64,000 bases of DNA. It comes from an uncultured Sphingomonadaceae bacterium. Its GTDB lineage: Bacteria > Pseudomonadota > Alphaproteobacteria > Sphingomonadales > Sphingomonadaceae. Shown in pieces: positions 13,472-21,005 of the stretch. The notes beneath the pieces are model-generated. The model was given only the letters and a program-made list of their open reading frames with translations. It ran no database searches and was not told the origin of the DNA. A program made the translations under genes and the position numbers. The stretch covers positions 992,001-1,056,000 of the forward strand of contig CANLSQ010000001.1 in NCBI GenBank assembly GCA_947493955.1, read 5' to 3'. How positions within the stretch are numbered: position 1 is the first letter of the stretch; each line of letters opens with the position of its first letter.

Positions 13472-14008
13472 ATGCCAAAAGCAAGACGATCCGATAACTG
13501 GGGCTTTCCCCGCTGGGGCAGCTATGAAAGCTCGCGCGAAACCGAGCAGGTGAAGATTTGCGACCGGCACGGCTGCAACGAAGCGGGTACCTGCCCGGCA
13601 CCCAAATCGCCCAACAGCCCGGATCGCTGGTATTTCTGTGAGAAACATGCGGCGGAGTATAATCGCGGTTGGGACTATTTCGAAGGTCTCGACAAGGAAG
13701 AACGGGCAAAACGGGAAGCTGACGAGCAGCGCGACGCCAACGCCTATCAGGAAGCCAAGCATTATAGCTGGATGGGATCTGGCGACGGTAGCCGGTCGCG
13801 CGACGAGATGACGGCGCTGGAAATATTCGATTTGACACCCGATGTCGATTTCGAGACGGTCAAGAAGGCATGGCGCGCGATGGCCAAGGAATATCATCCC
13901 GATGTCAATCCGGGCGACGAAGAAGCCGCGAAAAAATTTCAGGCAGCACAGGCGGCCTTTGATGTACTGAAAATTGCCGAAGAACGGCGGGTCTGGAAGC
14001 CGGTTTAA
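13472..14008 (+). CDS. J-domain protein with N-terminal Cys/His-rich segment
   Basis: A 178-residue protein ending in a J domain (about residues 115-178) with the HPD motif at 142-144, so it should stimulate a DnaK-type chaperone. The N-terminal part holds Cys30, His33, Cys35, Cys41, Cys56 and His59, which could bind zinc. The linker is charged and helical. It lacks the Gly/Phe and DnaJ zinc-finger regions, so it is a specialised co-chaperone of the DjlA-like or orphan type. Start ATG 13472 (MPKARRSDNW). Convergent with the next gene, overlapping it by 4 bases. Confidence 0.88.
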   Translation: MPKARRSDNWGFPRWGSYESSRETEQVKICDRHGCNEAGTCPAPKSPNSPDRWYFCEKHAAEYNRGWDYFEGLDKEERAKREADEQRDANAYQEAKHYSWMGSGDGSRSRDEMTALEIFDLTPDVDFETVKKAWRAMAKEYHPDVNPGDEEAAKKFQAAQAAFDVLKIAEERRVWKPV

Positions 14009-14415
14009 GGCTCTTCAGTTGTTTCGGTGTCTTTGTTCATTCGGGTTTGTAATTCGGTAATCTCTTCGATCGTGTATCCACCAGAAACCTGAGCCGTGCG
14101 TCCGTATATATATTCATTTAACACGGGCGTACTCAACAGCTTGTCTTCGAAGCAAAGGGCAAATCTCTTCCCAATGCGTCCTTTCTGAACAGCGGCAAAT
14201 TTGTCATAACCAGTTTCGGAAAATTCGATGTTCAGCACTGGTTCGTTTGAATAAGCGCCAAAGCCGATCCCAGCATAATGGATATCGGAAGCCACAAGTC
14301 GCAGCTCAAAATCCTGCTTTGGCTGTGCCGAGCAATCATGTTCATAACTGGGCTCGTCCACTTCAACCTCTGGAGCCTCTGACCAGGCAATTAGAAGTAA
14401 AGCAGGAAAAATCAT
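14005..14415 (-). CDS. Small protein resembling the SecD periplasmic (P1) head domain
   Basis: A 136-residue protein without close functional assignment. It has a short hydrophobic start (MIFPALLLIA), then a region that follows the SecD P1-head pattern: ELRLVASD early, LCFEDKLLSTPVLNEYI, and GRTAQVSGGYTIEEI, comparable with the usual SecD text around DGKVLSAPVI and GGSGQISG. It has no SecD membrane domain. Its ATG overlaps the sufE stop by four bases, so the pair is co-translated. It could be an envelope protein binding something with the P1 fold; function unknown. Confidence 0.7.
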   Translation of the reverse strand: MIFPALLLIAWSEAPEVEVDEPSYEHDCSAQPKQDFELRLVASDIHYAGIGFGAYSNEPVLNIEFSETGYDKFAAVQKGRIGKRFALCFEDKLLSTPVLNEYIYGRTAQVSGGYTIEEITELQTRMNKDTETTEEP

Positions 14416-14819
14416 ACCTGATATCGCTCTGCGGTCTGATTGATCAACGCAATCATGTTCGGGATTCCCTGGGTGCGATTGGAACTGAGCTGGTTTTTCA
14501 GGTCAAACGGTGCGAGCTTTTCCGCAATATCGGTTTTCAGAACAGCATCAATCGGTTGGTCCTGAACGGTTTCTAGAACCAGCGCGATGATACCTTTGGT
14601 AATGGCGGCGTTGCTGTCTGCCAGAAAATGCAGGCGGTCATCATCCTGTTTCGTTGGATAAACCCATACTGAGGCAGAACAACCACGAACCAGTGTTGCA
14701 TCGGTTTTGAGGGCATCGGGCATCGGTTCTAGTTCCTTACCCAAATCAATCAGAAGCCGGTATCGGTCATCAGCTTCCAGAAATTCATATTCTTCTACAA
14801 GATTATCAAATTTGCTCAT
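14412..14819 (-). CDS. sufE: SufE family cysteine desulfuration protein
   Basis: A 135-residue SufE homologue. SufE accepts persulfide sulfur from the cysteine desulfurase SufS and passes it to the SufBCD scaffold for iron-sulfur cluster assembly. The acceptor cysteine is Cys47 in LVRGCSASVW, and the C-terminal LSSNRTQGIPNMI is typical. No other suf gene is in the window. It overlaps the SecD-head-like gene by four bases and follows the last psp-array gene by 54 bases, so read-through from the psp operon is possible. Confidence 0.92.
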   Translation of the reverse strand: MSKFDNLVEEYEFLEADDRYRLLIDLGKELEPMPDALKTDATLVRGCSASVWVYPTKQDDDRLHFLADSNAAITKGIIALVLETVQDQPIDAVLKTDIAEKLAPFDLKNQLSSNRTQGIPNMIALINQTAERYQV

Positions 14820-14873
14820 CCCCGCCCGCTAGCAGGGCAGGGGATTCGCGTCATCCCTTTTTAGGAGCGGTTG

Positions 14874-15104
14874 TTAAAGCTCCACTCCGGCGGCAATCGC
14901 TTCCAGCTTGCGGATGCGTTCTTTTAGGTCCGCAACTTCAATCCGCGATGTAGCACTGGGGGGATTTTCCTCGCGCCTTTGTTCCAATTCCTTGGACTTG
15001 AGGTCAATCCAGTCCCTCCACCCACGCAGAGCGATAAGGGAGACCGCTGTTAGTCCAATCAAGGTAAATGCAGCAATCATCAGGTAAAAACTGGGTTCTG
15101 GCAT
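14874..15104 (-). CDS. Psp-array small membrane protein, member 6 (76 aa)
   Basis: A 76-residue protein with one N-terminal transmembrane helix (about 6-27) and a C-terminal coiled coil. Its end, VADLKERIRKLEAIAAG, carries the LKER-xx-xLExI motif shared by all small proteins of this array and by PspB. It is the last and shortest member and lacks the EIExLR end. It has a GAGGA ribosome binding site before ATG 15104. Probably a distant PspB/phage-shock paralogue of the inner membrane; no specific function can be given. Confidence 0.75.
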   Translation of the reverse strand: MPEPSFYLMIAAFTLIGLTAVSLIALRGWRDWIDLKSKELEQRREENPPSATSRIEVADLKERIRKLEAIAAGVEL

Positions 15105-15146
15105 GATGCTATCCTCTTTCTCTTCCTGCTTCGTTGGGGGACCGTC

Positions 15147-15416
15147 TTATTGGTCCCGCAATTTCTCAATTTCATTTTCCAATTCGCGTGCGCCGCGATC
15201 ATCGGTGGCGATTTTCTCCAGAACAGCGACGCGTTCCTTGAGATATTTGACTTCCTCGCGCAGTCGTCCGGCGTCGGGGTCAGCTGATGGAGTAACAGTG
15301 ATGGCATTGCCATCTTCATCTTCCAAAATTCCGTTTTGTGCTCGATACTTGCTGGTCATAACCTTACCAATGGTAATCACGATAATTATTGCGACGACAG
15401 CTTCTGCCCAACCCAT
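15147..15416 (-). CDS. Psp-array small membrane protein, member 5 (89 aa)
   Basis: An 89-residue protein: one transmembrane helix (about 4-19), a polar linker, then a coiled coil with VKYLKERVAVLEKIATD and a terminal ENEIEKLRDQ. It is nearly identical in its C-terminal half to the neighbour at 15447, which indicates recent tandem duplication. It has an AAGGAA ribosome binding site. By motif and context it belongs with PspB-like envelope stress proteins; precise role unknown. Confidence 0.78.
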   Translation of the reverse strand: MGWAEAVVAIIIVITIGKVMTSKYRAQNGILEDEDGNAITVTPSADPDAGRLREEVKYLKERVAVLEKIATDDRGARELENEIEKLRDQ

Positions 15417-15446
15417 AATTCCTTTTTCCTTCCTATTCCTATTTGC

Positions 15447-15716
15447 TCAACTGTCTCTCAGCTTCGCGATTTCACTCTCTAATTCCCGTGCACCGCGCTC
15501 GTCAGTTACAATTTTTTCCAACGTTGCCACGCGCTCTTTCAGATATTTCATATCTTCCTGCATGCGCCGGCCATCTTCACTTTCCGGTAGCCGCTCGCCA
15601 ATGAGCATCAGCTCTTTTTGCTTTTCCAGCATCTTGCTTTGATGACGGGTCCATATGGCGAGGCCGCCGAGCAAAAATGGTGCAAGGGGTATCAACACCC
15701 ATAGTTCATCGAACAT
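15447..15716 (-). CDS. Psp-array small membrane protein, member 4 (89 aa)
   Basis: An 89-residue protein with a transmembrane helix at about 5-22, a basic juxtamembrane stretch, and a C-terminal coiled coil carrying MKYLKERVATLEKIVTDER and ESEIAKLRDS. Closest relative is the next gene downstream (15147-15416). Its ATG overlaps the stop of the upstream gene by one base (TGATG), giving translational coupling. Presumed inner-membrane partner in the psp system, inferred from motif and operon only. Confidence 0.78.
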   Translation of the reverse strand: MFDELWVLIPLAPFLLGGLAIWTRHQSKMLEKQKELMLIGERLPESEDGRRMQEDMKYLKERVATLEKIVTDERGARELESEIAKLRDS

Positions 15717-15976
15717 CAGTTCAGCTCCTTCACTTCAGGCTCATCGCGCAGACTTTCAATTTGTCCGGCAACATCAAAACCTTTATCCGTAACAATTCGC
15801 TCCAACACGCGCACCCGCTGCTCCAGTTGTTTGTTATTGACAGCATATTGAGCAGCTTTTTCGGCGGATATCTCGGACTGCATCTTCAATATCTTCTGCT
15901 GATGACTGGTCCAAATTGCGAAAACTCCAACGCCGATGCCGGCAAATGGGATCAACAGGGCTAGATATTCAATCAT
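15716..15976 (-). CDS. Psp-array small membrane protein, member 3 (86 aa)
   Basis: An 86-residue protein with an N-terminal transmembrane helix (about 5-23) and a coiled coil ending in LEQRVRVLERIVTDKG and GQIESLRDE. It has the same architecture as its neighbours but an extra acidic end. It sits 10 bases after the upstream gene and overlaps the downstream one by a single base. It is a paralogue within the array; unknown function apart from probable membrane-stress association. Confidence 0.78.
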   Translation of the reverse strand: MIEYLALLIPFAGIGVGVFAIWTSHQQKILKMQSEISAEKAAQYAVNNKQLEQRVRVLERIVTDKGFDVAGQIESLRDEPEVKELN

Positions 15977-15986
15977 ATTGATCTCC

Positions 15987-16307
15987 TTAGTTTTTCGGTG
16001 CGCGCAGGGCTTCGATTTCGTTTGTCAGACGATGGCTATCGTCGGTCACAATCCGCTCAACATTGGCAAGCCGGTCTTTCATCGATCCGATCTCGGCGCG
16101 CAGTTCCGCATTTTCTTGTGTCAGCAGTTTGACGCGTTCCACCGCCTCGTTGTCCGTTTTCGGATAAACCGCTTTGCCCCACTGATTTTCAAGCGGATAG
16201 CCGTTTTTTATCCGCATCCAGGTTGTGGCCACCCATCCCAGTGTTACGACTGCACAAGCAAATCCGATGGGCCACAAAATAGAGGGGTTAGCTAAAATAC
16301 TCTCCAT
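15987..16307 (-). CDS. Psp-array small membrane protein, member 2 (106 aa)
   Basis: A 106-residue protein: transmembrane helix at about 10-28, a short KNGYPLENQWG linker, and a longer coiled coil (about 52-100) with MKDRLANVERIVTDD and NEIEALR. The linker pattern HGYPLEDEWG/NGYPLENQWG is shared with the adjacent upstream paralogue (16307-16606), so these two form a sub-pair. Start and upstream stop overlap by one base (TAATG). Confidence 0.78.
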   Translation of the reverse strand: MESILANPSILWPIGFACAVVTLGWVATTWMRIKNGYPLENQWGKAVYPKTDNEAVERVKLLTQENAELRAEIGSMKDRLANVERIVTDDSHRLTNEIEALRAPKN

Positions 16308-16606
16308 TATCCCTTCTCCCGCAACGCTTCAATTTCATCTGCTGTTCGTTTGGCTGGATCAGTCGCGATCCGTTCCAGAACTGCAAGACGCTCCTGCAAG
16401 CGATCGATCTTACCAACCAACTCTTCATTTTCCGCAGAGAGCAGCTCAATTTTACGATCGGCCTTTGGGTCATCCTTTGCGGTTGTCCCGCCCCACTCAT
16501 CTTCAAGCGGATAGCCATGTTTAGCCCGGATCCAATTATTGATTATATAGCCAGCATAACAAACGGCGATAATGGCGATAACAAATCCCGGTCCACCCCA
16601 ATTCAT
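16307..16606 (-). CDS. Psp-array small membrane protein, member 1 (99 aa)
   Basis: A 99-residue protein with an N-terminal transmembrane helix (about 6-25), the KHGYPLEDEWG linker, and a coiled coil with LQERLAVLERIATDP and DEIEALREKG. It is the array member nearest to pspC and the probable sister of the next gene. Membrane-bound with a cytosolic helix by topology rules; the shared motif matches the PspB helix at 17017, supporting a common origin. Confidence 0.78.
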   Translation of the reverse strand: MNWGGPGFVIAIIAVCYAGYIINNWIRAKHGYPLEDEWGGTTAKDDPKADRKIELLSAENEELVGKIDRLQERLAVLERIATDPAKRTADEIEALREKG

Positions 16607-16633
16607 AGTCAGTCTCCCTAAATTCTGTGTGGC

Positions 16634-17014
16634 TTAGCGCAGTTTTTCAATCTCATTCGAAAGTGCGCGGTTATTACTGGTGTAATATAATTCCATATCG
16701 GCAAGACGGCGGTCAATCTCACGAAAGCGTGATTTAACGTCTCTGGCCGTGCGGCGCGGGGATTGACGGACTCCTTGCCAAAATTCCCGTTCCTCTCTGT
16801 CGCCATAAAGTTCGATCGGTTTGGGATCAGCCGATTTTGCCGCGATCCAATAAGCAACCAAGGTCCATGGAAAGGCGAAAGTCACGGTGGCCATCACGGC
16901 AGCTAACCTGACCCACATAACGTTTATTCCGGTATAGTCGGAAATTCCGGCGCATACTCCGCTCCATTTGGCGCGCTGTTTATCAAGATAAAATTTTGTG
17001 CGGATCGAAGCCAT
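16634..17014 (-). CDS. pspC: PspC domain protein with appended coiled coil
   Basis: A 126-residue PspC-domain protein. The N-terminal part (about 1-60) is the PspC domain: basic start, KWSGVCAGISDYTGINVMWVRL, then a hydrophobic helix to about 58. In enterobacteria PspC senses membrane stress and releases PspA from PspF. The C-terminus (about 85-126) is a coiled coil ending in RLADMELYYTSNNRALSNEIEKLR-like text, the same end motif as the small array proteins, so PspC itself has acquired or donated that module. It starts 2 bases from the pspB stop. Confidence 0.88.
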   Translation of the reverse strand: MASIRTKFYLDKQRAKWSGVCAGISDYTGINVMWVRLAAVMATVTFAFPWTLVAYWIAAKSADPKPIELYGDREEREFWQGVRQSPRRTARDVKSRFREIDRRLADMELYYTSNNRALSNEIEKLR

Positions 17015-17016
17015 GA

Positions 17017-17319
17017 TTAGCGCCTTTCTTTTTTCAAGAGATTATCGAAATTTTCGAGTGTCGGTTTGGGTTCATTGCCTGCACCCGGTAATGCTGACTG
17101 CCGCCAGTCCGGATTGTCTGCTGCCATGATCCGTTCTATTGTCTCCATGCGTTCGTCCAATCGGCGTGCCATGATGTGCAAATCGTCGAGCAGTTGCTCG
17201 TCTTCATTGGTGATGGTTGCGGCCGTTTTCCATTTTGTAACATAATGGAAAATGATCCACGGGAACGCGACAAACAGAGTGACAATCGCAAAAAACGGGA
17301 TAAGATCGTTCGAGTCCAT
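17017..17319 (-). CDS. pspB: PspB, phage-shock envelope stress protein
   Basis: A 100-residue PspB-like protein: N-terminal transmembrane helix (about 7-27), FHYVTKWK, then the leucine-zipper-like helix with MARRLDERMETIERIM. E. coli PspB is about 74 residues; this one has a polar C-terminal extension. PspB acts with PspC at the inner membrane to relieve PspA inhibition of PspF. Its ATG overlaps the pspA stop by one base. The LDERMETIERI segment is the apparent template for the motif repeated in the downstream array. Confidence 0.86.
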   Translation of the reverse strand: MDSNDLIPFFAIVTLFVAFPWIIFHYVTKWKTAATITNEDEQLLDDLHIMARRLDERMETIERIMAADNPDWRQSALPGAGNEPKPTLENFDNLLKKERR

Positions 17320-18002
17320 TATTTGTCACCTTTCTGGTCTGACTTCTTCATGGCCGCCTTCATAGCTTCCAATTCATCATCAACTTTGTCGCTGCTTTCT
17401 AGCGCAGCAATCTGATTTTCTAGTGTCGCCGGCTCACCGCCCATCGTTAGCGCATCGGCACGGCCCTCGGCCTGGTCCACCTGACGTTCCAGATATTCAA
17501 ATTTTGAAAATGCATCATGGACCTTGTCGCCATTATACATTTCACGGATTTTATAGCGGTTCTCGGCGCTTTCGAGCCGGTTTACCAGGCTGCTCTGGCG
17601 AGAGCGTGCTTCCTGCAATTTCTTTTGAAGCTTGGCAATATCACCTTCTGAAGCGCGCAGGGCATCGTCTAGCACCTGAATTTCAACCGTAAGCTGTTCA
17701 GCCATATCAGCGGCTTTGCGTTTCTCGATCAGCGCCGCCTTGGCGAGATCTTCGCGGTCCTTGGAAAGGGCTAGTTGCGCTTTTTCGTTCCAGTCTTCAG
17801 TCAGCTGGTTCAGCTTATCAATATGCCGGCGCATTTCTTTTTGGTCGGCAATGGTCCGTGCGGCAGAAGCGCGAACTTCGACAAGGGTTTCCTCCATTTC
17901 CAGGATGATCATGCGGATCAGTTTTGACGGATCCTCCGCCTTGTCGAGCATGTCCGTGACATTGGCGGCGATGATATCGCGCGTTCTTGAAAAAATACCC
18001 AT
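17319..18002 (-). CDS. pspA: PspA, phage-shock protein A
   Basis: A 227-residue PspA/IM30 family protein, almost entirely coiled coil. It begins with the amphipathic membrane-binding helix MGIFSRTRDIIAANVTDMLD. PspA oligomers bind damaged inner membrane and, when not bound there, inhibit PspF. GGAG eight bases before ATG 18002 fixes the start; the open frame extends further upstream but without support. It lies downstream of a small exported-peptide gene and an intercistronic hairpin, and begins the pspABC-array part of the operon. Confidence 0.95.
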   Translation of the reverse strand: MGIFSRTRDIIAANVTDMLDKAEDPSKLIRMIILEMEETLVEVRASAARTIADQKEMRRHIDKLNQLTEDWNEKAQLALSKDREDLAKAALIEKRKAADMAEQLTVEIQVLDDALRASEGDIAKLQKKLQEARSRQSSLVNRLESAENRYKIREMYNGDKVHDAFSKFEYLERQVDQAEGRADALTMGGEPATLENQIAALESSDKVDDELEAMKAAMKKSDQKGDK

Positions 18003-18095
18003 GGTTAAACTCCGGTAGTTGCTAGCATTGTGCCTGGAATGGTTCGAACGTTCAGGCTGGTCTTCATAAAATTCTACGTCTTCAATCTGGAAAGG

Positions 18096-18142
18096 TGGCC
18101 GGGACCGTACTTCGGCAAGGGGGAATGAAGGAGTCCCGGCCA
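18096..18142 (-). other. Strong intercistronic stem-loop upstream of pspA
   Basis: TGGCCGGGAC (18096-18105) pairs perfectly with GTCCCGGCCA (18133-18142), a 10-base GC-rich stem with a 27-base loop. It lies between the first small gene of the operon and pspA. There is no T tract in the direction of transcription, so it is more likely an mRNA processing or stability element, or an attenuator, than a plain terminator. Confidence 0.6.
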
Positions 18143-18151
18143 TTTCGCCTG

Positions 18152-18334
18152 TCACGCCTTATAGCTGACAGTTGGGGAAATTGTACCATCTTCAGAGATG
18201 GTCGGGCCTTGTGCTTCGGCAGGGCCCACGGCGCTGATCAAAATCGTCAGGCTAAACAGCAACACGGAAATGATGGCAGAAACGTCGGTTCTGCTCAAAT
18301 TCATTAATTTGCCTGTTTTCGTAGCTGCTGACAT
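18152..18334 (-). CDS. Small exported or membrane peptide at the head of the psp operon (60 aa)
   Basis: A 60-residue protein: polar start, a hydrophobic stretch (about 17-37, VSAIISVLLFSLTILISAVG) and the sequence PAEAQG, which looks like a signal peptidase site, leaving a mature peptide of about 20 residues. GGAGG six bases before ATG 18334 supports translation. It is the first gene after the sigma-54 promoter. I do not recognise a family. It could be a secreted peptide or a leader gene for the operon. Confidence 0.6.
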   Translation of the reverse strand: MSAATKTGKLMNLSRTDVSAIISVLLFSLTILISAVGPAEAQGPTISEDGTISPTVSYKA

Positions 18335-18385
18335 GTTGTCCTCCGTTGGTCGATTTCCAGTCCCTTGCGGGTTCGAAACTAACAT

Positions 18386-18401
18386 TGCAGGAGGCGTGCC
18401 A
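18386..18401 (-). promoter_or_regulatory. Sigma-54 (RpoN) promoter of the psp operon
   Basis: On the minus strand the sequence TGGCACGCCTCCTGCA gives GG and GC spaced by exactly ten bases, matching the -24/-12 consensus TGGCAC-N5-TTGC with one mismatch (C for the first T of the -12 box). Transcription would start near 18375, about 40 bases before ATG 18334. The divergent gene encodes the PspF activator that such promoters require. Confidence 0.85.
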
Positions 18402-18407
18402 GTTTTT

Positions 18408-18420
18408 TAACTGGTTGATA
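18408..18420 (-). promoter_or_regulatory. IHF binding site upstream of the psp promoter
   Basis: On the minus strand TATCAACCAGTTA matches every position of the IHF consensus WATCAANNNNTTR. It lies at roughly -34 to -46 relative to the inferred start, between the sigma-54 promoter and the AT-rich pspF side, where IHF bending normally brings the enhancer-bound activator to polymerase. Confidence 0.7.
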
Positions 18421-18500
18421 TATTTAGATAATACAAGTTTTTGGAAAAATGAATATGGTATTAATTGCTATTTAATAGGAATTTGCACTATATATTGGCC

Positions 18501-19544
18501 ATGGAGCGCGAAAATCAGTTTGTTGGGGAGTCCGGAGCTTTCCTTGATGCAGTCGAAAAAGCCAGTCGGGCGGCCACTCTGGACCGTCCCGTACTTGTTA
18601 TCGGAGAGCGCGGTACAGGTAAAGAGCTCATCGCTGAACGTCTCCATCGACTAAGCATGCGTTGGGATGGTCCTTTGGTTACATTAAACTGCGCGGCCAT
18701 GCCCGAAACGTTGATCGAGGCTGAATTGTTCGGCCACGAAGCCGGTGCCTTTACGGGTGCGACCAAGAATAGAGTAGGGCGCTTTGAAGAAGCTGATGGC
18801 GGCACCTTGTTTCTGGATGAATTGGGAACATTGTCTTCTGCGGCGCAGGAGCGATTGCTCCGGGCGGTTGAATATGGCGAGATTACCAGAATAGGATCAT
18901 CGCGACCACAAAAAGTGGATGTGCGGATCGTGGCGGCTACCAATGCCGACCTGCCGAAGATGGCGGACGAAGGGAAATTCCGGGCGGATTTGCTTGATCG
19001 CCTGTCATTTGAAGTCGTGACGCTGCCGCCGCTACGCTATCGTGAGGGGGATGTTCCGGTTTTGGCGGACTATTTCGGGCGACGCATGGCTGCTGAACTG
19101 GAATGGGAACAATGGCCAGGCTTCGGTCAGTTGGCATCCGAAGCGCTGGCGCGTCATCAATGGCCCGGTAACGTCCGTGAACTCCGCAATGTGATCGAAC
19201 GCGCCGTCTATCAGTGGGGTGATTATACGAGGGCTGTCGATCATATCGTCTTTGATCCGTTTGAATCGCCATGGAAACCGAAAGAAATGCCTTCCCGGCA
19301 ATCGCAGCCAGTTGAAACCCAAAGCACGGATGAAAAAGCTGAGCCTGCCCCAGCAGCGCCGTCTGCAGAACCAGAATTTGCGGCTGTTGATGATATGAAA
19401 GAAGCGGTCGAAGCGTTCGAAAAGCGCATCCTTGAAGCAGCACTGGCCAAATCCCGCTATAACCAGCGACAGACCGCCAAAGCGCTCAATTTGACCTATG
19501 ATCAACTCCGACATTCGCTCAAGCGTCACGATTTACTGGGATAG
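18501..19544 (+). CDS. pspF: PspF, sigma-54-dependent activator of the psp operon
   Basis: A 347-residue bacterial enhancer-binding protein without a receiver or sensory domain, as in PspF, whose activity is controlled by PspA. AAA+ domain: Walker A GERGTGKE (35-42), the sigma-54 contact loop GAFTGA (82-87), Walker B GTLFLDEL (101-108) and WPGNVREL. The C-terminus has a Fis-type helix-turn-helix (QRQTAKALNLTYDQLRHSL). A Pro/Ala/Glu-rich linker separates the two. Divergent from the psp operon. ATG 18501 has no evident Shine-Dalgarno; TTG codons upstream are possible but less likely. Confidence 0.93.
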   Translation: MERENQFVGESGAFLDAVEKASRAATLDRPVLVIGERGTGKELIAERLHRLSMRWDGPLVTLNCAAMPETLIEAELFGHEAGAFTGATKNRVGRFEEADGGTLFLDELGTLSSAAQERLLRAVEYGEITRIGSSRPQKVDVRIVAATNADLPKMADEGKFRADLLDRLSFEVVTLPPLRYREGDVPVLADYFGRRMAAELEWEQWPGFGQLASEALARHQWPGNVRELRNVIERAVYQWGDYTRAVDHIVFDPFESPWKPKEMPSRQSQPVETQSTDEKAEPAPAAPSAEPEFAAVDDMKEAVEAFEKRILEAALAKSRYNQRQTAKALNLTYDQLRHSLKRHDLLG

Positions 19545-19566
19545 AATTTGTTAGGACTCTCAACAT

Positions 19567-19601
19567 AGAGTTCTCCAAGTAGTTTTATTGAACAGAACTC
19601 T
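19567..19601 (+). repeat. Inverted repeat upstream of the acyltransferase gene
   Basis: AGAGTTCT (19567-19574) and AGAACTCT (19594-19601) are perfect 8-base inverted copies separated by 19 bases. A related GACTCT lies just before at 19554-19559. No T tract follows. It may be a regulatory site or a weak pspF 3' hairpin. Confidence 0.35.
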
Positions 19602-19646
19602 AAAGGCCTTATCTAAGTTATTCGAAACAATGGGGTGTGAGGGCAT

Positions 19647-21005
19647 ATGAGTGAACGCGGCGAGACGGCAATCAAACGGAACCTATGGACCCGTGCACAG
19701 GATATGGCCCTCAAGGCTCCACCCGAACGCAACCGCTATGTCGATTTTCTGAGAGCCTTTTCCATTCTTGCGGTTGTGATCGGTCACTGGCTGGTAGCAG
19801 CGCCTTATATTGAAGATGGCGCGGTGAAGGGCGGGCATCTGCTGGGTATTTTGCCCTGGACCCAGTGGCTGACTTGGGGCTTTCAGGTTATGCCGGTATT
19901 TTTTCTTGTCGGCGGTTTTTCACACGGACTTTCCTGGTCCGCGAATTTGCGCAACAACGGATCCTATGCGGGATGGTTTACGGGACGACTGCGGCGGTTG
20001 ATTAACCCGGTGCTGCCCCTTTTCCTCATCTGGACAGTCTTCGCTCTGTTTGGCACGGCCATGGGCGTGGACCGCAAGATTGTTGAACTGGCGGCCCAGC
20101 TTGCGCTGATCCCAGTCTGGTTCCTCGCGGTTTACCTGATGGTCGGGGCAGTCGTGCCCTATACATATGGTTTGTGGAAGCGCTTTGGCATGACGTCATT
20201 CTGGGGTCTGGTCGCCGGCGCGATAGCCATCGATGCGATGACCTTTGGGCTGAACGTGCCGCATGTGAATTTTGTGAACTTTGCCTTTGTCTGGCTGGCA
20301 GTGCACCAGTTGGGATATGCGTGGAGCGAGGGATATTTTGCCAAACCGGTCAAAGCCCTGATGTGGGGCATAGGCGGTCTGATAGCACTCGGCCTGCTGG
20401 TCGGTTTAGGCCCTTATCCGGTGGCCATGATCGGCGTACCGGGTGAACCGGTCAGTAATAGTATGCCGCCGACAATTGCGTTGCTCGCACTTGGTATTGC
20501 GCAGACCGGACTGGTTCTCGCCTTGGAACCGATGGGCCGGCGGATGCTCGACAACCTAAAGATCTGGACCGGCGTCGTCCTGCTCAACGGAATGATCATG
20601 ACCACTTATCTGTGGCATTTGACCGCCTTTGTGCTCGTGATGGTGGCGGCCTGGTTGCTGGGAGGTATCGGCCTTGAAGTTGCTCCGGGAAGTGGATCAT
20701 GGTGGCTGACACGCCCAATCTGGTTTGTGCTCTATATCGCTGCTTTGTTGCCGCTGATCATGATTTTTGCCAAATATGAGCAAGCCGGAACGGGCGGGCA
20801 GCGTGAGAGAGCCGATCTGCCTCACTGGAGATTGATTGTCGGGCTGCTGTTCGTTTGTGCTGGCTTGGCAGCGACGGCCGCGATCAGCATTGCCAGCCCG
20901 CTCGGTGTTACAGGCGTAAGGCTGTGGGTGGTCGCAATGCCCTTTATCGGTGCGGCCTTTATCGGTTTCGGTCCGGCCCATAAGATCGCAAAACGGCTCA
21001 ACTAA
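19647..21005 (+). CDS. Integral membrane acyltransferase (acyltransferase 3 family)
   Basis: A 452-residue polytopic membrane protein of the acyltransferase_3 family, which transfers acyl groups to sugars, glycans or lipids. The first helix begins with the family signature RYVDFLRAFSILAVVIGHW (Asp-Leu-Arg and the conserved His). About ten hydrophobic helices follow across the length. The acceptor is unknown; nothing adjacent is a glycan biosynthesis gene. It ends at a shared bidirectional terminator. Confidence 0.85.
   Translation: MSERGETAIKRNLWTRAQDMALKAPPERNRYVDFLRAFSILAVVIGHWLVAAPYIEDGAVKGGHLLGILPWTQWLTWGFQVMPVFFLVGGFSHGLSWSANLRNNGSYAGWFTGRLRRLINPVLPLFLIWTVFALFGTAMGVDRKIVELAAQLALIPVWFLAVYLMVGAVVPYTYGLWKRFGMTSFWGLVAGAIAIDAMTFGLNVPHVNFVNFAFVWLAVHQLGYAWSEGYFAKPVKALMWGIGGLIALGLLVGLGPYPVAMIGVPGEPVSNSMPPTIALLALGIAQTGLVLALEPMGRRMLDNLKIWTGVVLLNGMIMTTYLWHLTAFVLVMVAAWLLGGIGLEVAPGSGSWWLTRPIWFVLYIAALLPLIMIFAKYEQAGTGGQRERADLPHWRLIVGLLFVCAGLAATAAISIASPLGVTGVRLWVVAMPFIGAAFIGFGPAHKIAKRLN

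Follow-up and report, generated by a model that had tools for sequence, protein, structure and literature searches.

A recurring array of small genes related to PspB and to the PspC tail behind pspABC in Sphingomonadaceae

The phage-shock-protein (psp) locus described here lies in a 64,000-nucleotide stretch (the window) of an uncultured Sphingomonadaceae bacterium (GCA_947493955.1, contig CANLSQ010000001.1, positions 992,001 to 1,056,000), where six small genes, s1 to s6, follow pspA, pspB and pspC. The first-pass annotation had read them as a lineage-specific multiplication of the PspB module; its gene order, coordinates and lengths are all correct, and the array is real. Judged by sequence comparison, it is more widespread and older than that first reading implied, and related to the PspC tail as much as to PspB. 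On the minus strand the order runs from a promoter through a 60-residue open reading frame (ORF), pspA, pspB, pspC and s1-s6 to a SufE-like gene, with a pspF-like gene reading in the opposite direction:

18465..19544 (start not settled), plus strand: divergent pspF-like activator gene; pspF is annotated here in NZ_CP155749, and GAFTGA is visible
18386..18401, minus strand: sigma54-type promoter TGGCACG-N4-CTGCA upstream of the predicted operon, matching at 11 of 12 positions
18152..18334, minus strand: small ORF of 60 residues with one hydrophobic segment, between promoter and pspA
17319..18002, minus strand: pspA; TIGR02977 279 bits (cut-off 243), PF04012 132.5 bits (cut-off 33.9)
17017..17319, minus strand: pspB; PF06667 88 bits (cut-off 25.6), TIGR02976 85 bits (cut-off 51.7)
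16634..17014, minus strand: pspC; TIGR02978 118 bits (cut-off 104), second half homologous to the array proteins by profile match
16307..16606, minus strand: s1, class a, 99 residues, with a GYPLEDEWG juxtamembrane motif
15987..16307, minus strand: s2, class b, 106 residues, with a long helix
15716..15976, minus strand: s3, class c, 86 residues
15447..15716, minus strand: s4, class d, 89 residues
15147..15416, minus strand: s5, second copy of class d, 89 residues
14874..15104, minus strand: s6, class T, 76 residues, divergent last array member without the tail
14412..14819, minus strand: SufE-like gene marking the array boundary, named from the gene in the same place in NZ_CP155749

One-base overlaps, also noted in the first pass, number three in all (pspA/pspB, s1/s2 and s3/s4). 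The names of the SufE-like and pspF-like genes are taken over from an annotated relative; GAFTGA is typical of sigma54 activators. That relative, Sphingomonas parapaucimobilis (NZ_CP155749), carries in the same stretch pspF, a hypothetical protein, pspA, pspB, pspC, four hypotheticals and a SufE family protein, the first of the four, and the only one matched, corresponding to s2 of the window at 45% identity.

Each of s1-s6 has a single hydrophobic stretch (19-residue mean 1.8-2.4), as first described. Flank charge resembles the orientation of PspB, being negative on the N-terminal and positive on the C-terminal side in classes b, c, d, f and T (classes are defined below), with class a about neutral and class e negative. 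From hydropathy, flank charge and, for s2, a structure model of moderate confidence (predicted local distance difference test, pLDDT, 72) showing two helices at residues 8-35 and 52-102, s1-s6 are predicted, as for PspB, to consist of an N-terminal single membrane helix and a cytoplasmic helical tail; a PspC model (pLDDT 46) was not used. The motif said to unite the six, L-x2-R-[LVI]-x3-E-[RK]-I-x-[TA]-D, is exact in s1, s3, s4 and s5, has M for the first L in s2, and is represented in s6 by LKERIRKLEAIAAG, from which the R/K and D are missing. The following E-I-x-x-L-R occurs in s1, s2, s4 and s5, takes the form Q-I-x-x-L-R in s3 and is absent from s6, while PspC does end in SNEIEKLR; at the sequence level the LR tail of s1-s5 is that of PspC, not of PspB. 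The claim that all six contain a coiled coil was not borne out: in a simple heptad test the signal was significant, among s1-s6, for s1 (p 0.027) and s2 (p 0.0005) only, with values of 0.12-0.54 for s3-s6, 0.023 for PspC and 0.09 for PspB.

A hidden Markov model (HMM) of s1-s5, run against the whole 3.4-Mb genome at an expectation value (E) of at most 10, returned just seven matches: s1-s5, the pspC tail (0.0024) and s6 (0.013). In profile-profile comparisons based on 414 array, 103 PspB, 102 PspC and 100 s6-type (T) sequences, the array family scored 39.9 against PspB, 42.4 against PspC and 36.4 against T, with hhalign probabilities of 92-94%; null controls, comprising reversed targets, a reversed query, 40 column shuffles for each of three targets, and PspA, reached at most 18.8. 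The alignment with PspC covers its positions 44-126, and the cytoplasmic parts alone scored 34.8 (PspC), 27.7 (PspB) and 27.4 (T), the array family containing a C-terminal cytoplasmic module of PspC type. Directly compared, T matched neither PspB nor PspC, and the PspB and PspC profiles met only at E 0.017, so that the array family is the link between these proteins. By these sequence criteria s1-s5 are clear homologues and s6 is more distant, and the common origin proposed at first stands for s1-s5 and, with weaker support, for s6.

None of s1-s6 passes a curated cut-off in Pfam or NCBIfam, where PspA, PspB and PspC each pass at least one. Against the PspB models (PF06667, TIGR02976 and NF006993), the best of the six reached 13.1 of 25.6 bits (PF06667, s3) and 16.0 of 51.7 bits (TIGR02976, s4). 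Below cut-off, s3 and s4 match the PspB tail, and the matches of s2 and s3 to TIGR02978 are confined to its positions 71-121 and 74-121, the last 50 or so; s1-s6 gave no match to the N-terminal PspC domain (PF04024). The phrase 'multiplication of the PspB module' is therefore only partly right, given the unmet PspB cut-offs, a PspC half matched at least as well, the PspC-type tail of s1-s5, and solo members elsewhere in genomes.

Related loci were taken from a PspC search as the best 80 of 234, 78 titled as Sphingomonadales taxa and two only by class or phylum; adding the window gives 81 named loci, and since about half of the 80 are Sphingopyxis the counts are not independent. The arrangement pspA-pspB-pspC followed by one to seven array-family (S) genes occurs in all 81, with T in 79 and a SufE-like gene in 76; the two loci lacking T both end soon after pspC. 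A further 28 family loci from 24 genera all hold three to seven array genes behind pspC, with T in 25 and the SufE-like gene in 26; frames outside 70-125 residues, one each in L149 and L164 among these 28, were left out of the family alignments and tree. In L160 the SufE-like gene stands about 1.5 kb behind T without adjoining it, and an insertion may have occurred at the array end. Across an order sample of 147 genomes (E of at most 1e-3), all 99 Sphingomonadaceae, the source genome included and the family being named after the titles of the named loci, gave one to eight matches each, counts that may include T or pspC (G168 has eight matches and seven array genes), whereas in other families 37 of 48 genomes gave one to three weaker matches (weakest best match 3.4e-5, G084). 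Among 72,556 plasmid records a single one matched, a Sphingomonas replicon of 880 kb. The description 'lineage-specific' is thus true at the level of the bacterial family, where the array looks old and not recent; it is not private to the source lineage.

Ten of the 11 outgroup loci carry pspABC without an array, the SufE-like gene lying fewer than 300 bases after pspC in four of them. In the eleventh, L185 of family f8, pspC is followed by a PspC that stops after its domain and next by a single S gene; L268 and L269 of the same family look alike, and this arrangement may be an intermediate state. A second, shortened pspC of 72-84 residues, comprising the PspC domain without the tail, occurs in psp operons of two outgroup families (L185:5425-5680, L268:5713-5949, L269:5733-5975 and L181:5157-5376), and in f8 it stands before the single S gene as if one PspC had split in two.

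A rough, midpoint-rooted FastTree phylogeny, computed on 98 columns for 175 array proteins belonging to 40 of the 109 family loci, resolved clades a (s1), b (s2), c (s3) and d (s4 and s5), together with two smaller ones, e and f, at supports of 0.81-0.98. Class strings assigned by HMM read a-b-c-d in 44 and a-b-c-d-d in 12 of the 81 named loci, and they include c-e-b in 10 of the 28 further loci, the commonest order being pspC-a-b-c-d-T-sufE. Where class a or e occurs together with b, it precedes b in all 73 such named loci and in 19 of 20 such further family loci; d comes last in 78 of 81 and 26 of 28, respectively; L154 (d-c-c-b) and L173 (d-c-b-a-d) are family loci with altered class order. 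Copy number varies from one to seven across the named loci, and some loci hold two or three class c or d members. The ratio of nonsynonymous to synonymous substitution rates (dN/dS) against four relatives, where computable, was 0.02-0.22 for s1-s5, 0.03-0.07 for s6 and 0.01-0.09 for the psp genes, values that are rough owing to saturated dS in many comparisons. Given the recurring classes and order and the low dN/dS, the array looks like an old set of four paralogue classes with later additions and no recent burst. The s4 and s5 proteins are 73% identical over 41 C-terminal residues and their genes 67% over the last 126 bases; recent gene conversion was considered for this pair and rejected, as the two differ about equally in six relatives (0.67-0.72).

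The site at 18386-18401 is the best sigma54-type match on the psp strand within 14000-20000. Of 118 related loci, 11 of them outgroup, 111 have a sigma54 site scoring at least 10 upstream of pspA, although in L168 and L169 the start of pspA is overlapped by the best such site, which is perhaps spurious; inside arrays the best score is 9. Spacing within the operon is tight, and the rule by which gene starts in the loci were set prefers an ATG close to the preceding stop and so biases towards short gaps. No terminator-like site was found on the minus strand within s1-s6. Layout and promoter match together suggest that pspABC and the array form one operon behind the sigma54 promoter and would be co-transcribed.

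Relatives of the array genes also occur singly, away from psp. In outgroup families of the order such S-like genes are present in one or two copies in the 18 genomes looked at (sites were viewed in 18 of the 37 positive non-family genomes, where second or third matches are sometimes PspB itself). They were also found in one more family of Alphaproteobacteria and, beyond that class, in four families of the phylum, which are probably, at a guess, Gammaproteobacteria; a class sample gave matches in 8 of 241 genomes, four of them Sphingomonadaceae and two (G328, G351) weak and over a PspB-like stretch. Like the array proteins, the solo proteins combine a single membrane helix with a helix that carries [LM]-x-x-R-[VIL]-x-x-LE-[RK]-x-x-TD ... 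I-x-x-L, sharing the motif LEERVRVLERIxTD...EIDxL; unlike the array, they are encoded mostly away from psp and have no common neighbourhood. For all eight solo relatives scanned, the best NCBIfam match was a PspB or PspC model (PspB in four), below cut-off, and Pfam placed PspB at E of at most 1 in seven, as best match in one. Among solved structures the PspC profile had no match below E 0.2, and short helical matches of the solo-family profile, such as HP0062 (E 6e-4), were set aside as coil similarity. In three f8 loci (L267, L270, L271) the solo gene stands behind a large gene that by sight resembles rpoD, with other neighbours in common, and three other solo loci have a similar peptidase-like gene 1-3 kb away.

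Against known systems, the array proteins resemble PspB (PF06667/TIGR02976) in their single membrane helix, short cytoplasmic helical tail with L-x2-R-x4-E-R-I and shared operon, and differ from it in lacking the P-W-x-I-x-H-Y-x-T-K-W-K region as well as in score and tail. With the second half of PspC (PF04024/TIGR02978) they share R-L-x3-E ... T-[SD] ... E-I-E-x-L-R in the same register; unlike PspC, they lack the PspC domain (its G-V-C-A-G-I-x-D-Y part) and are separate genes. Passages of PMC9239133 describe PspD and PspG of enterobacteria, likewise small Psp proteins of unclear function, to which s1-s6 show no Pfam or NCBIfam match at E of at most 1. According to passages of PMC9239133 and PMC5596341, pspG has a sigma54 promoter and is among the targets of PspF; a PspG-like regulation of the solo genes was rejected, a sigma54-like site scoring at least 10 standing upstream of only 1 of the 33 solo genes that remained once duplicates and copies linked to psp had been removed, compared with 10 of 1204 background windows.

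The bare fact of extra PspB-like genes in psp operons is already known: a 2024 survey, in passages of PMC11237479, mentions in one phrase PspB duplicates in some psp operons, with AOL22920.1 as example accession, and states that PspC can carry a divergent C-terminal PspB as a fusion. The size, classes, order, separate family, solo relatives and taxonomic range described here are not given in those passages. The main text of the PMC9239133 survey contains no word beginning with 'sphingo', and the array, its classes and the solo family were not found in literature searches outside of which lay most subscription papers and all preprints. Excerpts of PMC2241609 list sphingomonad-specific hypothetical genes, which may or may not include array genes.

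Passages of PMC5596341 describe a Yersinia inner-membrane complex made of PspB and PspC, in whose on state PspA is bound by the C-terminal cytoplasmic domain of PspC and PspF is released; in Escherichia coli, passages of PMC3068692 make a putative leucine zipper of PspC a requirement for interaction with PspA. As the PspC tail binds PspA and s1-s5 repeat that tail on a single anchor, the favoured explanation, given about an even chance, is that the array proteins are membrane-anchored helical adaptor subunits of the Psp complex, joining PspB and PspC and giving PspA extra docking sites. Each would present a cytoplasmic helical tail from one N-terminal membrane helix, the tail of s1-s5 (L-x2-R-[LIV]-x3-E-[RK]-I-x-T-D plus EIxxLR) being in register with the PspC tail and, without its last part, with that of PspB. 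The proteins would join PspB and PspC in one inner-membrane assembly, their PspC-like tails would serve as the additional docking sites, and one promoter would supply a defined set of non-identical subunits that may hold PspA at damaged membrane and sharpen the release of PspF. A hetero-oligomeric sensor or PspA scaffold, as suggested in the first-pass annotation, is plausible, favoured by the recurring paralogue classes and order. A bolder proposal, possible and advanced tentatively, is that the family represents a third, uncatalogued membrane component of the proteobacterial Psp system, a PspB/PspC-tail protein working with PspBC even when encoded elsewhere, which in the ancestor of Sphingomonadaceae would have been drawn into the psp operon and split into non-redundant subunits building a hetero-oligomeric docking platform for the ESCRT-III-like PspA.

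Several observations weigh against the adaptor explanation. According to passages of PMC3068692, putative membrane regions mediate both the self-association of PspB and its association with PspC in E. coli; assembly might therefore use a surface other than the cytoplasmic module. The single-sequence Pfam evidence is weak, unrelated coils ranking equal to or higher than PspB and PspC: for s3, PspB (E 0.11) stands below RIC3 (0.0028), and s2 matches ZapB (0.0021) and not PspB. To this are added the missing direct match of T to PspB or PspC and the non-significant heptad signal of s3-s6. A separate promoter may lie near the pspC end and s1 start, where three sigma70-like minus-strand matches were found, in a scan whose total of six is not above the expected mean of 4.4. 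Two family genomes (G068, G137) show array matches and no PspB match, perhaps because of gene loss or a break in the contig. The association of solo genes with PspB, which counts in favour of the adaptors, is itself qualified. Outside the family, strong solo matches occur in 10 of 23 phylum-sample genomes with PspB and in none of 165 without (188 in all), a cut (all 10 at 5.1e-13 or better) chosen after the list had been viewed; at 1e-4 there were 12 matches, of which G511 (5.4e-5, no PspB) and G366 (7e-5, PspB itself) were dropped. The order sample outside the family gives 37 of 43 S-positive genomes with PspB and none of five without, kinship among genomes weakening both figures, and because the 10 strong genomes belong to only five families, a Fisher p of 1e-10 overstates their independence. 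PspB occurs without S in all six f154 genomes and in five of six f158 genomes. Finally, no neighbour is common to more than four of 20 solo loci, and with the near absence of sigma54 sites this leaves the Psp role of the solo genes uncertain.

The main rival to the adaptor explanation is that the array proteins are PspB-like silencers pairing with the cytoplasmic tail of PspC, keeping PspA off and setting the threshold or range of inducing signals. The PspB-like topology agrees with it, as does a PspB model being the best NCBIfam match of half the solo relatives scanned, and cytoplasmic contacts between PspB and PspC reportedly silence the response in Yersinia; the EIxxLR tail, of PspC type and missing from PspB, speaks against it, and silencing is considered fairly unlikely. 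Effectors acting on the membrane themselves, as PspG may, and merely co-expressed with pspABC, would account for several small membrane proteins behind a stress promoter, a pattern that fits an effector regulon, and for solo relatives that are genetically unlinked to psp. The homology with PspB and PspC, which are signalling proteins, a conserved cytoplasmic helix in which R, E, T and D are invariant or nearly so, and the co-occurrence of solo genes with PspB make this an improbable account.

A redundant tandem duplication that persists by drift, its copy number mattering little, could explain the variable copy number and the loci with repeated class c or d members, but classes, order and last position recur across the family and dN/dS is low for each member where computable, if roughly so with dS often saturated; drift is accordingly a decidedly improbable explanation. 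That short, charged, helical sequences invite chance matches, and that several weak Pfam matches are eukaryotic coiled coils, might suggest unrelated small membrane proteins alike by composition, a view scarcely credible overall and contradicted for s1-s5 by the genome-wide HMM specificity and the null controls.

The 60-residue ORF between promoter and pspA, which falls inside the interval named in the first-pass annotation, ends in YKA and occupies a position annotated as a hypothetical protein in S. parapaucimobilis; ORFs of similar size stand here in many relatives, with one of 30-90 residues in 108 of 112 loci with a good sigma54 site. Many from the family are alike (one hydrophobic stretch and a last residue A, often as ELA, EIA or LA), and others are clearly chance frames. 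Passages of PMC3495753 report that ethanol raises pspA, pspB and pspC in Zymomonas. A small gene, ZMO1062, placed before pspA by gene number, rises with the psp genes in xylose medium (passages of PMC8645129) and changes alongside pspA with temperature (passages of PMC8237431).

Work on how PspB and PspC hand PspA from PspF to the damaged membrane has dealt mostly with enterobacteria, and several diverged tails of one module in recurring order provide natural variants for finding residues that bind PspA as opposed to one another. The array adds an unnamed family, carried as hypothetical proteins in one annotated record, to a stress system linked to membrane integrity. With relatives in every sampled genome of the family, it is probably a built-in extension of the stress sensor and not an oddity of one genome. 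Many Sphingomonadales replace lipopolysaccharide with glycosphingolipids, as passages of PMC2241609 state, and, speculatively, this may be the reason that a larger sensor was kept.

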